From contig NYZA01000013.1 in NCBI GenBank assembly GCA_002686955.1, positions 1 to 8,136 on the forward strand: a stretch of DNA of 8,136 nucleotides, in the 5' to 3' direction. Positions within the stretch are counted from its first letter, which is position 1; the number at the start of each line of letters is the position of its first letter. Shown here piece after piece: positions 1-8,136 of this stretch. Under the pieces are notes generated by a model. That model had not been told where the DNA came from and searched no databases. It worked only from the letters and a program-made list of their open reading frames with translations. The position numbers were made by a program, and so were the translations under genes. This stretch comes from Gemmatimonadota bacterium. Its GTDB lineage: Bacteria; GCA-2686955.

Positions 1-589
1 CCCCCTTTTCGAGCTGCTCTTCGAGGGCATGCATGGAACCGCGGCGGGAGATGGTCCGCGCGCCCGCCGCGCTTCGCCTGTCGCGCAACACTCTATCGAG
101 TGTCTCGTTCTTCGCTGGAGTCGCGGGCACGCAGAGCTCGAAGCCTCTCAGCGAAAACACGGCCCCCAACATCTCGAAGGCCCCGAGATGAGGAACGAGC
201 AAGAGCGCACCGCCCTCGCGATTCGCTCGCCGAAAGAGATCGATCTCCGCCGGCTCCACGTCGATGCAGCGCGCAACCGATTCCGGATGAGGCGCTCTGG
301 CCAGCATGTCTATCCCGTTCCGTCCGGCCTCACGGAACACCGCGCGCGCCATCCGCTTCGCTCTGCCGCGGTCAACCCCGTGGATCTCCTCGATGTTGCG
401 GACAGCCAAGCGCCACGAGCCTCGCGCCAGCCGGCGGGCGGCGCCTCCGGCGCCCTCGCCAATCAAGAGAGCGAGCGGCCTCGGCAGCAGGCGGAGCGCG
501 CCCGGAAGCGTTCGAAAAGCCACCACGGCCATCGCATGCCGGATCGGGCGGAAGGTGCGTCGCACCCAGCGTCGAAGGTCTCGCGCCAT
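1..589 (-). CDS. LpxL/HtrB-family lipid A late acyltransferase (partial, C-terminus beyond left edge)
   Basis: The first 196 residues of a lysophospholipid/lipid A acyltransferase of the LpxL/LpxM family, which adds secondary acyl chains to lipid A at the inner membrane. Seen: the HX4E catalytic motif as HLGAFE at residues 134-139, preceded by the hydrophobic strand GGALLLVP (126-133), and a downstream ISRRGS (180-185) matching the conserved Arg/Gly segment after the motif. The N-terminal 20 residues are Arg-rich and precede a moderately hydrophobic stretch, consistent with membrane association. The ATG at 589 follows the stop of the upstream KdsA-like gene after one codon (TAG ATC ATG), in the same reading frame, so it is probably translationally coupled; no clear Shine-Dalgarno is seen. 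LpxL enzymes normally prefer Kdo-bearing lipid IVA, which fits the neighbouring inner-core genes. The exact member (LpxL, LpxM, or a broader acyltransferase) cannot be fixed from the N-terminal part alone. Confidence 0.85.
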   Translation of the reverse strand, partial: MARDLRRWVRRTFRPIRHAMAVVAFRTLPGALRLLPRPLALLIGEGAGGAARRLARGSWRLAVRNIEEIHGVDRGRAKRMARAVFREAGRNGIDMLARAPHPESVARCIDVEPAEIDLFRRANREGGALLLVPHLGAFEMLGAVFSLRGFELCVPATPAKNETLDRVLRDRRSAAGARTISRRGSMHALEEQLEKG

Positions 590-592
590 GAT

Positions 593-3202
<2,610 letters not shown>

Positions 3203-5029
3203 GTGAACGACGCCCGACGAATAGCAGGAGCCATGCGACCCGAGTGGCCGATCTTCGTTCTCTCGATGGTCGCCACTCTGCTCTATGTGCTGCTCAATTC
3301 AGCCTCGATCTGGCTGCTCGGCTCGGTCGTGCACACCGTATTCGCCCCCGTGCCGGAGCCGAGCGCCCTCGCCGAGGCCGCAGGGTCGATCAACGCGCAG
3401 CTGAAGAGTTGGACCGCCTACTGGCTATGGGCCGACACGCCGATCGACACCCTGCGCCGGGTCGCCTGGGCGCTCTTCTGGATCTTCCTGCTCAAGAACT
3501 TCGCCCTCTACGCGAAGAACACCTCGGTCGCCTGGATGCAGACCCGCCTGCTGACCCGTCTGCGCAAACTCCTCTTCGACCGGCTCCTGGTGCTGCCGAT
3601 CGGCTTCTATGACCAGCGGCGGACCGGTGAGCTCGCTTCGATCGTGATCAACGACGTATCGAAGATCCGCGCCAGCCTCACCAACAGTCTGCAGCGCCTG
3701 ATGACCGAACCGATCAACGTGGTCGCCTTTCTGGGGCTGCTCTTCGTCATCAACTGGCGATTGACGATCGCGGCGGGGCTGATGTTCCCGATCTCGGCCG
3801 CACTGATCCACTGGATGGGCACGAGCATCAAGCGGAAGTCGCGGCGGACCAGCAAGCAGATCGCCGGCGTGATGGGCGTGCTCCAGGAGACCCTCACCTC
3901 GATCCGCATCGTTCAGGCGTTCACGATGGAAAAGGCCCAGTCGGAGCGATTCGATCGGACCTCGCGCCGATTCTCCGCTCTGCTCTACCGCCAGGCCCGC
4001 CTCGCGAACCTCTCCTCCCCCGCCACCGAGATGATCGGCGTGAGCATCGGGATCGTGCTGCTCTGGATCGGCGGTCGAGAGGTGCTCACGGGGAGCGGAA
4101 TGGAATCGGAGGACTTCATCCGCTACCTCTTTCTCCTCTTCTCGGTGATGCAGCCGGTCCGGAATCTGGCGCGCGTGAACAACCAGATTCAGGACGGATT
4201 GGCGGGGGCGGGACGGGTATTCGGGCTGCTCGATACCGTCCCCTCGATCGTGGACCGGGAAGGCGCGAGTCCGATGCGCGGATTCTCGGAATCGATCCAC
4301 TTCGAAGCGGTCGAGTTCACGTACGAGGGGGCGGAGGGGCCGGCGTTGGACGCGATCGAGCTCGAGATCGCTTCGGGGGCGACCGTCGCTCTGGTCGGGA
4401 GCAGTGGCGCGGGGAAATCGACCCTGGTCGATCTGATCCCACGCTTCTACGAAGCCCAAGGGGGCTCACTGCGAATCGACGGCGTCGACGTGCGGCAGCT
4501 GACCCTCGCCTCACTGCGCGGGCTGATCGGGGTCGTGCCCCAAGAGACGGTTCTTTTCGACGCCACTCTCGCCGAGAACATCCGCTGCGGCCGCCCCGGA
4601 GCCTCGCGGGAGGAAGTGCGCGCGGCGGCGGAAGCGGCCCATGCTCTGGAGTTCATCGAGGAGCTGCCGGAAGGCTTCGACACCCGAATCGGCGAGCGCG
4701 GGTTGCGCCTATCGGGAGGGCAGCGCCAGCGGATCGCGATCGCCCGCGCCGTCCTGAAAGACCCCCCGATCCTGATCCTCGACGAGGCCACCTCCTCGCT
4801 CGACAGCGAATCGGAGCGGGAGGTGCAGCGGGCGATCGACGAGCTGGTGCGAGACCGCACGGTGATCGTCATCGCCCATCGCCTGTCTACCGTGCTCCAC
4901 GCCGATCGCATCGTGGTACTCGACAGGGGGCGCATCGTCGAGACCGGAACGCACGAAGAGCTGATGCTGCGAGCAGGGAGCTACAAGCGGCTCCATCAGA
5001 TGCAGTTCGCGGCGGGGGCGGGGAAGTGA
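3203..5029 (+). CDS. msbA: MsbA-type lipid A/LPS flippase, ABC exporter half-transporter
   Basis: A 608-residue type IV ABC exporter half-transporter (membrane domain fused to ATPase) of the MsbA/lipid-exporter group, expected to flip lipid A-core across the inner membrane. The membrane domain has a first segment near 17-43, a second near 87-105 and further pairs up to about residue 320. The ATPase has Walker A GSSGAGKST (399-407), a Q-loop in VVPQETVLF, the signature LSGGQ (503-507), Walker B ILILDE ending at Asp527-Glu528, and the H-loop His559. The loop between the first two membrane segments is about 45 residues, longer than in E. coli MsbA. The start is a judgement: GTG 3203 gives an N-terminus (RRIAGAMRPEW) like other exporters. 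It is the first gene of the plus operon, with neuA starting 4 nt after its stop. The cargo is inferred from the waaA and lpxL neighbours; the fold alone would also fit a multidrug exporter. Confidence 0.88.
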   Translation: MNDARRIAGAMRPEWPIFVLSMVATLLYVLLNSASIWLLGSVVHTVFAPVPEPSALAEAAGSINAQLKSWTAYWLWADTPIDTLRRVAWALFWIFLLKNFALYAKNTSVAWMQTRLLTRLRKLLFDRLLVLPIGFYDQRRTGELASIVINDVSKIRASLTNSLQRLMTEPINVVAFLGLLFVINWRLTIAAGLMFPISAALIHWMGTSIKRKSRRTSKQIAGVMGVLQETLTSIRIVQAFTMEKAQSERFDRTSRRFSALLYRQARLANLSSPATEMIGVSIGIVLLWIGGREVLTGSGMESEDFIRYLFLLFSVMQPVRNLARVNNQIQDGLAGAGRVFGLLDTVPSIVDREGASPMRGFSESIHFEAVEFTYEGAEGPALDAIELEIASGATVALVGSSGAGKSTLVDLIPRFYEAQGGSLRIDGVDVRQLTLASLRGLIGVVPQETVLFDATLAENIRCGRPGASREEVRAAAEAAHALEFIEELPEGFDTRIGERGLRLSGGQRQRIAIARAVLKDPPILILDEATSSLDSESEREVQRAIDELVRDRTVIVIAHRLSTVLHADRIVVLDRGRIVETGTHEELMLRAGSYKRLHQMQFAAGAGK

Positions 5030-5033
5030 AGCG

Positions 5034-5729
5034 ATGATCGCTCCCAACCCTCGCGTCTCCGCTCTGATCCCCGCCCGGGGAGGCAGCAAGGGGCTCCCCC
5101 GCAAGAACCTGGTGCCCTTTCTCGGCGAGCCGTTGGTCGTGCACAGCGTTCGGGCTGCGCTCGAGGCGCGCTCGGTCACCGATGTGGTGGTCTCGACCGA
5201 CGACGATGAGATCGCGGAGGTGGCTCGCGGGCACGGCGCTTCGGTGTTGCGACGTCCCGGAGAGCTCGCGTCCGATACGGCCACGACCGAGAGCGCGATC
5301 GACCATTTTCTGCGCTCCGGAGAGGGACCCGCCCCCGACCTGATCGTGCTCTTGCAGCCGACCAGTCCGCTGCGCCCCGCCGGAGCGATAGACGAGGCGG
5401 TCGCGAAGCTCGTCGAGGGTGGATTCGACACTTTGCTCTCTCTCGCGCCGACGCATCGCTTCTATTGGACTGTCGAGGGGGAACGGGCGGAGCCGCGATA
5501 CGATTTCATGATCCGCCCGCGGCGACAGGATCTGGGGCTCGATGAGATCGCGTATGTCGAGACAGGGTCGATCTACGTGTTCACGCGGGAGCACTTCGAA
5601 CGCTCGGGCAACCGCCTCGGGGGGCGGATCGGCCATGTGATACATTCCGAGCCCTATGCACTGGAGATCGACACTCCAGCCGACCTCGCGGCACTCGAAG
5701 CGCTCGCTCGATCGTTGGATCGCCCGTAG
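5034..5729 (+). CDS. neuA: CMP-nonulosonate synthetase (NeuA-type acylneuraminate cytidylyltransferase)
   Basis: A 231-residue single-domain cytidylyltransferase that activates a 2-keto-3-deoxy sugar acid with CTP to give the CMP-sugar. Seen: the nucleotide-binding loop IPARGGSKGLPRKN (12-25), STDDDE (54-59), LLQPTSPLR (106-114), RPRRQD (161-166), ETGSIY (176-181), and the metal-binding segment EIDTPAD (211-217) with Asp213 and Asp217. ARGGSKG, RPRRQD and the ExGS segment are typical of CMP-sialic/KDN/legionaminic synthetases. They are shared with animal CMAS rather than with KdsB, the CMP-Kdo synthetase. It lacks the C-terminal HAD-like domain of animal CMAS, but such a protein is encoded separately two genes downstream. 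A purine-rich GGGAAG lies 7 nt before the ATG. The exact substrate (KDN, Neu5Ac or another nonulosonate) cannot be read from sequence alone. Its position between msbA and waaA suggests that its product is the donor for WaaA. Confidence 0.9.
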   Translation: MIAPNPRVSALIPARGGSKGLPRKNLVPFLGEPLVVHSVRAALEARSVTDVVVSTDDDEIAEVARGHGASVLRRPGELASDTATTESAIDHFLRSGEGPAPDLIVLLQPTSPLRPAGAIDEAVAKLVEGGFDTLLSLAPTHRFYWTVEGERAEPRYDFMIRPRRQDLGLDEIAYVETGSIYVFTREHFERSGNRLGGRIGHVIHSEPYALEIDTPADLAALEALARSLDRP

Positions 5730-6800
5730 ATGAAGGAATCGGTTTCAGCCCCTGCTCCCAGCTTTTCGGCGGGCGATCGCACGATCGGCGGCGACGCTCC
5801 CTGTTATGTCATCGCCGAGCTCGGTATCAACCACCAGGGAGATCCGGCGGTCGCCCGCAGCCTCATCGAGGCTGCGGCCCTCGCGGGGGCCGACGCGGTA
5901 AAGCTACAGAAGCGAAATGTCGATCGGATCCTCACTCGTGAAGGCCTCGATATGCCGTACCTCAATCGGCACAGCTTCGGCGAGACCTACGGGGAGCACA
6001 AGCGGGCACTCGAGCTCTCCGAGAGCGATTTCGCGGGGCTTCGCGACCACGCGGCCGAGCGTGGGCTACACTTTCTTGCGTCGGGCTGGGACGAAGAAAG
6101 CATCGATTTTCTTTTCGAGCTCGGGGTGCCCTTCTTCAAGATGGCGTCGGCCGATCTGACGAATCCGCCCCTTCTGCGGCACACGGCACGCAAAGGGCGC
6201 CCGGTGGTTCTTTCGACCGGGATGGCCTCGATGAGCGAAGTCGAGCGGGCGCATTCGCTCGTACGCGAGCTCAACCGATCGATCGCTCTGCTCCAATGCA
6301 CTTCGACATATCCGAGCCGTTTCGAAGAGATCGATCTACGTGTGATCGAAACCTACCGCTCCGCTTTTCCCGAAACAGTGATCGGTTACTCAGGGCACGA
6401 ACGCGGAATCTCGGTGTCGGCGGTGGCGGTCGCGCTGGGCGCCAAGATCGTCGAGCGACACTTCACTCTCGATCGCACCATGAAGGGGGGCGACCATGCG
6501 GCCTCGCTCGAGCCGCAGGGTTTCGCGAAGATGGTGCGCGACATCCACCACGTGGAAGAGGCGCTAGGCTCGGCCGACAAGCGAATGCACGACACGGAGG
6601 CTCCGATCCGGTTGAAGCTCGCGAAAAGTATCGTTACCGCTACGCGGATTCGCCGCGGTGAGACGATCCAACAAGACGCACTCACGACAAAGGGCCCGGG
6701 GACCGGCATATCCCCCGCGCATCTGGACGAGGTGATCGGCCGCAAGGCCGCGCGCGATCTCGACCCGGATCGTGTGATCAGGCCGGACGACCTCGTATGA
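5730..6800 (+). CDS. neuB: NeuB/NANS-family nonulosonic acid (9-phosphate) synthase
   Basis: A 356-residue PEP-dependent nonulosonate synthase: TIM barrel (about 20-285) plus C-terminal SAF/antifreeze-like domain (about 295-355). Barrel landmarks: VIAELGINHQGD (27-38) with Glu30, Lys58 in VKLQK, QCTSTYP (189-195), the metal-binding His223 in GYSGHE and His244 in VERHFT, and GGDHAASLEP (253-262). From memory it resembles human NANS more than Neisseria NeuB. Both share a segment around HSFGETYGEHKR (81-92), FLASGxDE (115-122) and VPFFK (133-137). NANS uses ManNAc-6-P or Man-6-P to give Neu5Ac-9-P or KDN-9-P, and the phosphatase encoded next supports a 9-phosphate route. In the SAF domain, the Arg that binds the N-acyl group in Neisseria NeuB (RPG motif) appears as Gly322 (KGPG), so an unacylated substrate giving KDN is possible. 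Its ATG directly follows the neuA TAG, and its stop overlaps the next start by 4 bp. Confidence 0.92.
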   Translation: MKESVSAPAPSFSAGDRTIGGDAPCYVIAELGINHQGDPAVARSLIEAAALAGADAVKLQKRNVDRILTREGLDMPYLNRHSFGETYGEHKRALELSESDFAGLRDHAAERGLHFLASGWDEESIDFLFELGVPFFKMASADLTNPPLLRHTARKGRPVVLSTGMASMSEVERAHSLVRELNRSIALLQCTSTYPSRFEEIDLRVIETYRSAFPETVIGYSGHERGISVSAVAVALGAKIVERHFTLDRTMKGGDHAASLEPQGFAKMVRDIHHVEEALGSADKRMHDTEAPIRLKLAKSIVTATRIRRGETIQQDALTTKGPGTGISPAHLDEVIGRKAARDLDPDRVIRPDDLV

Positions 6801-7315
6801 AGGTGAATCGAGAGCGCACGATCCGCGAGAAGGCTCGGAAGATCGGTCTTGTAGGCACCGACATCGACGGCGTCTGGACCGATGCCCGCATGTATTACGG
6901 CCCAGATGGGGAGCTGATGAAGGGTTTTTCGACCTACGACGGCATGGGCGTCGCGCGGCTGCGGGCGGCCGGCATCCCCACCGCGATCCTCACCTCGGAA
7001 GATACTCAGATCGTCGCCCGCCGCGCCGAGAAGCTGGCGATCGGCGATGTACATTTGGGTGTGACCGACAAGCTGGAGTGCATGCGACGAATCGCGGACG
7101 AACGGGGCCTCGATCTCTCCGAGATCGCCTATATCGGTGACGACACAAACGACATCGACCTGCTCGAAGCGGTCGGTCTTTCGGCCTTGGCGCCACAGAG
7201 CCCCCTCGTGGGTCGCCTCCAGGTCGATCTGGTGGTGAGCCGGCGCGGCGGCGAGGGGGCGTTTCGGGAGCTGGCGGAGCTGATCCTCGATGCCCGCGCC
7301 GAGCCGAGGCGCTAG
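6797..7315 (+). CDS. KdsC-like C0 HAD phosphatase, probably nonulosonate-9-phosphate phosphatase
   Basis: A 172-residue, cap-less (C0) HAD phosphatase of the KdsC/YrbI family; such proteins act as tetramers and remove the terminal phosphate from a keto-deoxy sugar acid. Catalytic set: motif I Asp22-x-Asp24 in TDIDGVWTD, motif II Thr66 in ILTS, motif III Lys92 in TDKL, and motif IV GDDTND (114-119). The C-terminal GGEGAFRE (151-158) matches the conserved tail that reaches into the neighbouring subunit's active site. Two positions bear on substrate. Glu68 (LTSED) and Lys79 (AEKL), 11 residues apart, correspond to Glu56/Lys67, recalled as the specificity pair of Bacteroides KDN-9-P phosphatase. 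Kdo-8-P phosphatases such as E. coli KdsC have Arg (TGRK) at the first. This favours a 9-carbon substrate, in keeping with the neuB homologue it overlaps by 4 bp. It could still be a KdsC of relaxed specificity. Confidence 0.87.
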   Translation: MKVNRERTIREKARKIGLVGTDIDGVWTDARMYYGPDGELMKGFSTYDGMGVARLRAAGIPTAILTSEDTQIVARRAEKLAIGDVHLGVTDKLECMRRIADERGLDLSEIAYIGDDTNDIDLLEAVGLSALAPQSPLVGRLQVDLVVSRRGGEGAFRELAELILDARAEPRR

Positions 7316-7328
7316 GGCCCGCGGCGAA

Positions 7329-8136
7329 ATGAACGACCCGCCTCTGCTCAAGGCGTACAACGCGCTGCTACCGGTGGCGAGGGTCGCGATGGCGGCAGCG
7401 CCACTCTTCAGCGAGAAACTGGCGCGAAGGCGGCGCGAAGCGACCCTCTCCGTAGACCTGGCGGTGGAGGAGGTCGATCGCCTTCGCTCCGACGGACGGC
7501 GCGTCGTGCTCTGCCACGCGGCTTCGGCGGGTGAATTCGAGCAGCTCAAGCCTGTGCTGCGGCGGATCGACAGGAAGCGACATATTATCGTACTGAGCTT
7601 CTTCTCGCCAACGATTCGCGACCCGGCCACCGCGAGCGATCTCGCCGACGCCGCCTGCTACCACCCCCTCGATTATCGTCGCGAGGCCGATCGCTTCTTT
7701 GCCCGCCTGCGCCCCGCCGACTACCTGATCACTCGCCACGATCTTTGGCCCAATCACCTCGCCGCCGCCCGCCGTGCCGGCGCGCGAACCGTGCTGATCA
7801 ACGCCAATCTGCACGCTCGCTCCCTCCGACTTCACCCATGGGCCCGACACGCCACCCGCGCTCTCTTCTCGCTCCTCGATCGCGTTCTCACCGGCTCGGA
7901 GCGGCTGCGCGCCCGCCTCGCCGCCGTGATCGATCCCACCCGAATCGCGGTCACCGGAGATACGCGCCTCGATCAGGTCTGGGAGCGGTCACGCTCCAGC
8001 GGCGGCCCGCCGCCCCTGCCGACCCCCTTCCTCGATCAACGGCGGGTGCTCGTCCTGGGCAGCGTACTCGAGAGCGACGAGCGGGTCCTCTTCGAGGGGT
8101 TTCGCCGGGCCTTCGCGAGGCCGAACGCCTCGATCG
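7329..8136 (+). CDS. waaA: WaaA/KdtA-family (Kdo) transferase homologue (partial, C-terminus beyond right edge)
   Basis: The first 269 residues of a GT-B glycosyltransferase of the WaaA family, which transfers Kdo from CMP-Kdo to lipid IVA on the inner face of the inner membrane. Seen: an N-terminal weakly hydrophobic anchor (about 6-28), HAASAGEFEQ (63-72) with the proposed catalytic base Glu69, and FFSPTIRD (91-98). These are followed by HDLWPN (137-142), INANLHARS (157-165), VTGDTRLDQV (208-217) and, opening the donor-binding C-domain, LGSVLESDE (243-251). Two motifs deviate: the usual ELWPN glutamate is Asp138, and the usual GST.xGEE-like segment reads GSVLESDE. It starts 13 nt after the phosphatase stop with a poor ribosome site. 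Because the CMP-sugar genes upstream are of nonulosonate type, the donor here may be a CMP-nonulosonate. The other start options were not convincing, as this ATG gives the normal N-terminal length. Confidence 0.87.
   Translation, partial: MNDPPLLKAYNALLPVARVAMAAAPLFSEKLARRRREATLSVDLAVEEVDRLRSDGRRVVLCHAASAGEFEQLKPVLRRIDRKRHIIVLSFFSPTIRDPATASDLADAACYHPLDYRREADRFFARLRPADYLITRHDLWPNHLAAARRAGARTVLINANLHARSLRLHPWARHATRALFSLLDRVLTGSERLRARLAAVIDPTRIAVTGDTRLDQVWERSRSSGGPPPLPTPFLDQRRVLVLGSVLESDERVLFEGFRRAFARPNASI

Follow-up and report, generated by a model that had tools for sequence, protein, structure and literature searches.

Which sugar joins lipid A to its core when the gene for WaaA, a homologue of the transferase of 3-deoxy-D-manno-oct-2-ulosonic acid (Kdo), lies behind genes for the synthesis of a nine-carbon sugar? 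The question is raised by contig NYZA01000013.1 of a Gemmatimonadota bacterium (assembly GCA_002686955.1), the whole 8136-base length of which is referred to here as the window. Five genes of the types msbA, neuA, neuB, haloacid dehalogenase (HAD) phosphatase and waaA follow one another on its plus strand, with junctions of 4, 0, −4 and 13 nucleotides. The WaaA encoded here very probably uses a cytidine monophosphate (CMP)-activated nonulosonate instead of CMP-Kdo, as an earlier reading made from the letters of the window (the sequence-only reading) had proposed; missing Kdo genes, a conserved gene order and zero overlap with the Kdo-8-phosphate synthase KdsA support this proposal, and from them we infer the transfer itself. 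The gene order, coordinates and junction lengths of the sequence-only reading were all reproduced from the list of open reading frames and from family searches, as follows.

3206 to 5029, plus strand: msbA-type lipid A flippase (best NCBIfam model MsbA, TIGR02203, 522 bits, cut-off 602); its start codon is uncertain, the longest frame beginning at 3083.
5034 to 5729, plus strand: neuA-type cytidylyltransferase, a CMP-nonulosonate synthetase (CTP_transf_3, PF02348, 98 bits).
5730 to 6800, plus strand: neuB-type nonulosonate(-9-phosphate) synthase (NeuB, PF03102, 274 bits; SAF, PF08666, 43 bits).
6797 to 7315, plus strand: C0-type HAD phosphatase of the KDN-9-phosphate phosphatase type (KDN, 3-deoxy-D-glycero-D-galacto-non-2-ulosonic acid; best model NF058599, 166.2 bits).
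7329 to 8136, plus strand: waaA (glycosyltransferase family GT30) of the nonulosonate-linked clade (PF04413, 110.9 bits, cut-off 23.9), truncated by the contig end.

In the pathway proposed, the NeuB-type enzyme would condense phosphoenolpyruvate (PEP) with a hexose 6-phosphate, most likely mannose 6-phosphate (Man-6-P), to give a nonulosonate 9-phosphate, from which the HAD phosphatase would strip the phosphate. The NeuA-type enzyme would make the CMP-sugar, most likely CMP-KDN, with CMP-N-acetylneuraminic acid (CMP-Neu5Ac) as second choice. A dedicated WaaA subfamily would move the nonulosonate, in place of Kdo, onto the lipid A precursor, and MsbA would then flip the nonulosonate-bearing lipid A. 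In many relatives, a GT29 sialyltransferase-like enzyme probably adds more nonulosonate or draws on this donor to act on the core.

Relatives of the operon were sought by scanning GTDB genomes with the NeuBs of the host and of a member of its family, a metagenome-assembled genome (MAG) deposited as ‘Gemmatimonadetes bacterium’ (G001), which has the same msbA-neuA-neuB-HAD-waaA order at 59–70% identity. The NeuB clade, at approximately 59–70% identity, also includes Neomarinimicrobiota (Fidelibacterota at NCBI), a Calditrichaceae MAG, a MAG labelled Cloacimonadota and a Chitinispirillum MAG (Fibrobacterota), so that the gene order, which the sequence-only reading had suggested looking for in related genomes, is present both in G001 and in other phyla. 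The four genes neuA-neuB-HAD-waaA are fully contiguous in 19 of 31 related loci and partly kept in most of the others, with neuB and the HAD gene adjacent in 29 and the HAD gene and waaA adjacent in 25. The exceptions include contig ends, insertions before neuB, waaA genes undetected nearby (L057, L060) and a waaA on the opposite strand (L072). The end of msbA also lies upstream of neuA in G001 (locus L044), and at L068 the operon is surrounded by msbA, an lpxL-like gene and lpxA-, lpxC- and lpxD-like frames, the lpx frames being assigned by eye. No waaA match was found in the same GTDB scan near NeuBs whose identity falls below about 50%.

A set of 120 Neomarinimicrobiota genomes, sampled evenly across the phylum and partly overlapping the 31 loci, was used to follow the operon against KdsA, an operon NeuB being defined by at least 54% identity. 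NeuB and WaaA are encoded on one strand, about one HAD gene apart, in 27 of the 30 genomes with an operon NeuB, and in the other three WaaA is on another contig or undetected. This adjacency, together with the recurrence of the four-gene order, indicates that the arrangement is more than chance. Thirty of the 120 genomes encode an operon NeuB and 75 encode KdsA, none encodes both and 15 encode neither, 13 of which also lack WaaA (Fisher p = 2e-17, ignoring shared ancestry). Among the 102 genomes with WaaA, the corresponding numbers are 29, 71, none and two (Fisher p = 2e-23, with the same limit). WaaA is retained in both the NeuB and the KdsA groups; only the donor pathway changes.

The same absence holds across the wider set of operon carriers. 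KdsA over cut-off was found in none of 29 genomes with an operon NeuB, the weaker matches near 120 bits having the length and score expected of 3-deoxy-D-arabino-heptulosonate 7-phosphate (DAHP) synthases; KdsB over cut-off was found in two of the 29 (G086, G087), and KdsD, the arabinose 5-phosphate (A5P) isomerase, over cut-off in none of 30 operon genomes. LpxC was found by the same search method in all 30. That the Kdo genes were merely overlooked through MAG incompleteness, as the 84.5% completeness of the host and the 83% of G001 might allow, is very improbable, given that KdsA is found in none of the 30 Neomarinimicrobiota with an operon NeuB versus 75 of the 90 others, that the absence of KdsB and KdsD coincides with that of KdsA, and that LpxC was recovered throughout.

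The host genome itself (G000) contains one WaaA, one NeuB and one LpxC by profile searches, and no KdsB or KdsD over cut-off at its 84.5% completeness. Its sole KdsA match is the homologue encoded in the window, which is one of three genes on the minus strand.

2 to 589, minus strand: LpxL/LpxM-type lipid A acyltransferase (PF03279, 52.7 bits, over cut-off), truncated by the contig end.
593 to 1444, minus strand: KdsA homologue, read as a relict, with an open frame of 283 amino acids (TIGR01362, 229 bits, cut-off 314).
1441 to 3111, minus strand: pyrG, cytidine triphosphate (CTP) synthase (NF003792, 809 bits).

The gene pair pyrG-kdsA is a frequent one. In the homologue, besides the score below the KdsA cut-off, 35 of the 74 positions that are invariant in reference KdsAs are altered, including catalytic ones; the changes include C to A30, N to A66, D to E99, H to C101, K to V142, R to G171, H to R203, E to D241 and D to G252, and we take the altered positions to cover the known metal and substrate ligands of KdsA. 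We read it as a probable relict of a lost Kdo pathway, with its active-site residues gone; the gene may be decaying, or it may have taken on another role. The canonical Kdo2-lipid A pathway (KdsD, KdsA, KdsB) is thus not found in the host genome at its present completeness, and G001 (83% complete) has no KdsA match at all. The sequence-only reading had held that an intact kdsA/kdsB pair elsewhere in the genome would speak against it; none of kdsB, kdsD or an intact kdsA was found in the host or in G001, and its specification of an intact kdsA was apt, a degenerate one being present in the window itself. In the broad sample, 54 of the 58 genomes with WaaA have KdsB over cut-off, and two of the four exceptions are the host family.

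The WaaAs have diverged along with the operon. Those encoded next to NeuB form one clade across all these phyla (Shimodaira-Hasegawa approximate likelihood-ratio test, SH-aLRT, 99–100), nested among the Kdo-type WaaAs. The clade keeps S28, G30 and E31 (Aquifex aeolicus numbering), the catalytic G30-E31 pair being present in 27 of 27 members, and an AlphaFold model of the G001 WaaA (predicted local distance difference test, pLDDT, 92) has the GT-B fold of A. aeolicus WaaA, 2xci, its best structural match (Z 29.1, root-mean-square deviation 4.3, 345 aligned). Three features mark all 27 members: position 98 is R, position 57 is I, where nearly all other WaaAs have G, and the NAR motif has become NAN, the last two changes lying in conserved motifs. 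Position 98 is E in 36 of 39 WaaAs of the general group, and E98 is important for activity, possibly contacting or positioning Kdo via its carboxylate (review PMC6286764). R98 marks the clade and is not by itself proof of a new donor; position 98 was rejected as sole proof of a donor change because Kdo-type WaaAs of the neighbouring branches also lack the E, which therefore is not a defining mark of Kdo use in that part of the tree.

The identity of the sugar has to be read from the three enzymes that would make it. That the pathway includes a phosphatase implies an intermediate phosphorylated at carbon 9, the scheme also of the KDN and the vertebrate-type Neu5Ac routes, and argues against pseudaminic and legionaminic acid. 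The best PDB chains for the HAD protein, 3e81 and 3e8m, are BT1713 of Bacteroides thetaiotaomicron; E56, R64 and K67 of BT1713, which we take from its structure paper to mark KDN-9-phosphate phosphatases, correspond to E68, R76 and K79 in the window, and all 30 clade members examined retain them. The closest solved relatives of the NeuA-type enzyme are CMP-sialate synthetases, animal-type included (9t4z PpNeuA, 6ifd, 1qwj), far above the KdsB chains, and it scores 33.8 bits against the KdsB model TIGR00466, versus a cut-off of 155.2.

These features bear on whether NeuB, HAD and NeuA might be a replaced Kdo pathway, in which PEP and A5P would give Kdo-8-phosphate, the HAD phosphatase would act as KdsC and the NeuA-type enzyme as KdsB, so that WaaA would still move Kdo. 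Such a replacement would account equally well for the exclusion of KdsA and for the link with waaA, and the HAD belongs to a subfamily that includes KdsC. It is nevertheless unlikely, since no operon genome has an A5P isomerase over cut-off, the HAD carries the KDN-9-phosphate markers, the NeuA-type enzyme is closest to CMP-sialate synthetases rather than KdsB, and WaaA residues near the active site are changed. In addition, the Kdn-9-phosphate synthase of Prymnesium parvum uses Man-6-P only, giving no product with arabinose 5-phosphate or with N-acetylmannosamine 6-phosphate (ManNAc-6-P) (PMC6200933).

Between the two nine-carbon candidates, we favour CMP-KDN over CMP-Neu5Ac on the combined sequence evidence of the HAD model, its PDB match and markers, the NeuB residue described below and the NeuA relatives. 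If WaaA does use a nonulosonate, KDN is fairly likely to be the sugar. Arg314 of Neisseria meningitidis NeuB binds the N-acetyl group of N-acetylmannosamine (ManNAc; 1XUZ, 4IPI); the window NeuB has Gly322 at this position, and Gly is found there in 32 of 32 NeuBs of the clade. Together with the replaced arginine, its 338 bits against the N-acetylneuraminate synthase model TIGR03569 (cut-off 399.65) set it apart from that family. A Neu5Ac pathway starting from ManNAc-6-P, a variant within the nonulosonate reading that shares its probability, is possible and distinctly less likely: phosphatases of the BT1713 type, like CMP-sialate synthetases, can accept either sugar, and the best PDB relatives of the NeuA-type enzyme include the CMP-Neu5Ac synthetases 1qwj and 6ifd, but the glycine is invariant, the best phosphatase model and PDB match are KDN-9-phosphate phosphatases, and the best NeuA match, PpNeuA, is to judge by its name probably the P. 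parvum CMP-Kdn synthetase.

Genes beside the operon suggest that the donor may have further users. GT29 sialyltransferase-like genes, a family known in bacteria from sequence (PMC5811610), flank the operon at 19 of its 33 loci, whereas none lies near the other NeuB loci. Their products may place a second nonulosonate on the core. The alternative named in the sequence-only reading is that the three genes act for a different glycan and only happen to share the operon. That glycan could be an outer core, a capsule or a GT29 product, and WaaA would then use another donor or scavenged Kdo. The GT29-like genes do make further donor users probable, yet this alternative would leave WaaA without a recognisable donor in most of these genomes, which have no other recognisable CMP-octulosonate route and have kept WaaA and LpxC. 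HAD-waaA adjacency also persists where no GT29 gene is seen, and the WaaAs that accompany the operon have branched off as a clade of their own, so that a purely separate glycan appears improbable, marginally more so than a replaced Kdo pathway.

Several points weigh against a nonulosonate-using WaaA. The support is drawn from genomes and sequences, from which we infer what the enzymes do, which sugar they make and that this sugar is linked to lipid A. The HAD protein scores below the curated cut-off of NF058599 (166.2 versus 180 bits), the host and G001 are incomplete, almost every other operon genome is a draft MAG, and the p-values of the KdsA exclusion carry the limit of shared ancestry given above. 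At position 98, the neighbouring Kdo-type WaaAs mostly have T, S or K, and R in three. Two operon genomes, G086 and G087, have KdsB-like enzymes, and one, G105 (L103), has a partial KdsD-like SIS-domain protein, whose 181 bits are the only strong A5P-isomerase-like match among the 30 operon genomes. The KdsB-like genes of G086 and G087 adjoin a gene for an HpcH/HpaI-type aldolase, not KdsA (by Pfam test at L092 and by sequence at L091); these enzymes probably make another ulosonate, perhaps by way of a further CMP-ulosonate route that relies on a pyruvate aldolase. They are encoded at L091 1492–2262 (plus) and L092 1477–2277 (plus).

The proposed system resembles the canonical Kdo2-lipid A pathway (KdsD, KdsA, KdsC, KdsB and WaaA/GT30) in its GT30 enzyme, its CMP-activated 3-deoxy-2-ulosonate donor and its position beside lipid A genes. 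It differs in that the donor route is NeuB/HAD/NeuA with nine carbons, that KdsD, KdsA and KdsB are absent and that WaaA forms a separate clade. Nonulosonates of this type are made elsewhere, and to our knowledge the KDN of B. thetaiotaomicron is not known to end on lipid A. The KDN pathways of B. thetaiotaomicron (BT1713 and its neighbours) and P. parvum (PMC6200933) share the logic of Man-6-P to KDN-9-phosphate to KDN to CMP-KDN, and the BT1713 markers; they are not known to be linked with waaA or with a loss of Kdo, as the route here is.

The known lipid A linkers are Kdo and its eight-carbon relatives, D-glycero-D-talo-oct-2-ulosonic acid (Ko; Granulibacter, PMC8036547; Burkholderia and Acinetobacter) and 8-amino-3,8-dideoxy-D-manno-octulosonic acid (Kdo8N; Shewanella) (PMC3210612). 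In these systems the linker sugar is likewise replaced or modified, but by eight-carbon relatives of Kdo and with no separate nonulosonate pathway. The lipooligosaccharide (LOS) of Loktanella rosea has a nonulosonate in its innermost core, as proposed here, but its α-Neu is attached to Kdo rather than to lipid A, and Kdo still joins lipid A (PMC3210612). No report of KDN, sialic acid or another nonulosonate as a lipid A linker was found in the open-access literature, subscription papers and preprints being outside the search.

In lipopolysaccharide (LPS), Kdo is regarded as the invariable sugar; LPS is detected and quantified by it, its synthesis is a drug target, and every WaaA is annotated as a Kdo transferase. 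A study of KSB1, for example, takes lpx and kdtA genes as evidence of Kdo2-lipid A (PMC9012183). It is probable that KDN, or some other nine-carbon sugar resembling sialic acid, anchors the lipid A made by a dedicated GT30 subfamily in several phyla, part of the marine Marinimicrobia/SAR406 group among them. Kdo would then not be the universal inner-core linker of LPS among bacteria that use WaaA, and GT29-like enzymes would extend a sialic-acid-type core. If so, Kdo is replaceable, certain abundant marine bacteria escape Kdo assays, and an endotoxin has a sugar of the sialic-acid type at its heart. It would also be a testable case of a change in GT30 donor specificity, in which the genome of the window still has its dying kdsA.

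A few genomes stand outside the pattern. In the Neomarinimicrobiota G118 and G163, WaaA is present and neither KdsA nor an operon NeuB was found; these are incomplete genomes or have a third donor. The other two broad-sample genomes with WaaA and no KdsB, G050 and G058, were considered as operon carriers and rejected, as there is no operon at their waaA; G058 has a normal KdsA and G050 a weak KdsA-family match only, and they look like cases of incompleteness or something else. A search of 386 broad-sample genomes with the operon NeuB gave, beyond the host family, only one sequence at 54% identity to that of the window (G378:C213:3937–4947, locus L145, from another family), all others being at 48% or less. 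Clusters of neuA-HAD-neuB without waaA (L076, L077, L078, L079 and L088) occur in genomes labelled Actinomycetota and Chloroflexota-type, and probably supply KDN or Neu5Ac to other glycans.

Examples of the GT29-like genes are found at L046 (8689–9318, plus), L068 (6629–7261, plus) and L064 (6333–7004, minus), with 16 more operon loci. CDP-glycerol-type, LicD and IspD-like genes also recur near the operon. At L046 (6075–8649) and L068 (4231–6660), genes for a CDP-glycerol-type glycerophosphotransferase, LicD, a cytidylyltransferase and a fusion of IspD with a short-chain dehydrogenase lie beside it, suggesting a core that may bear phosphoglycerol or phosphoribitol.

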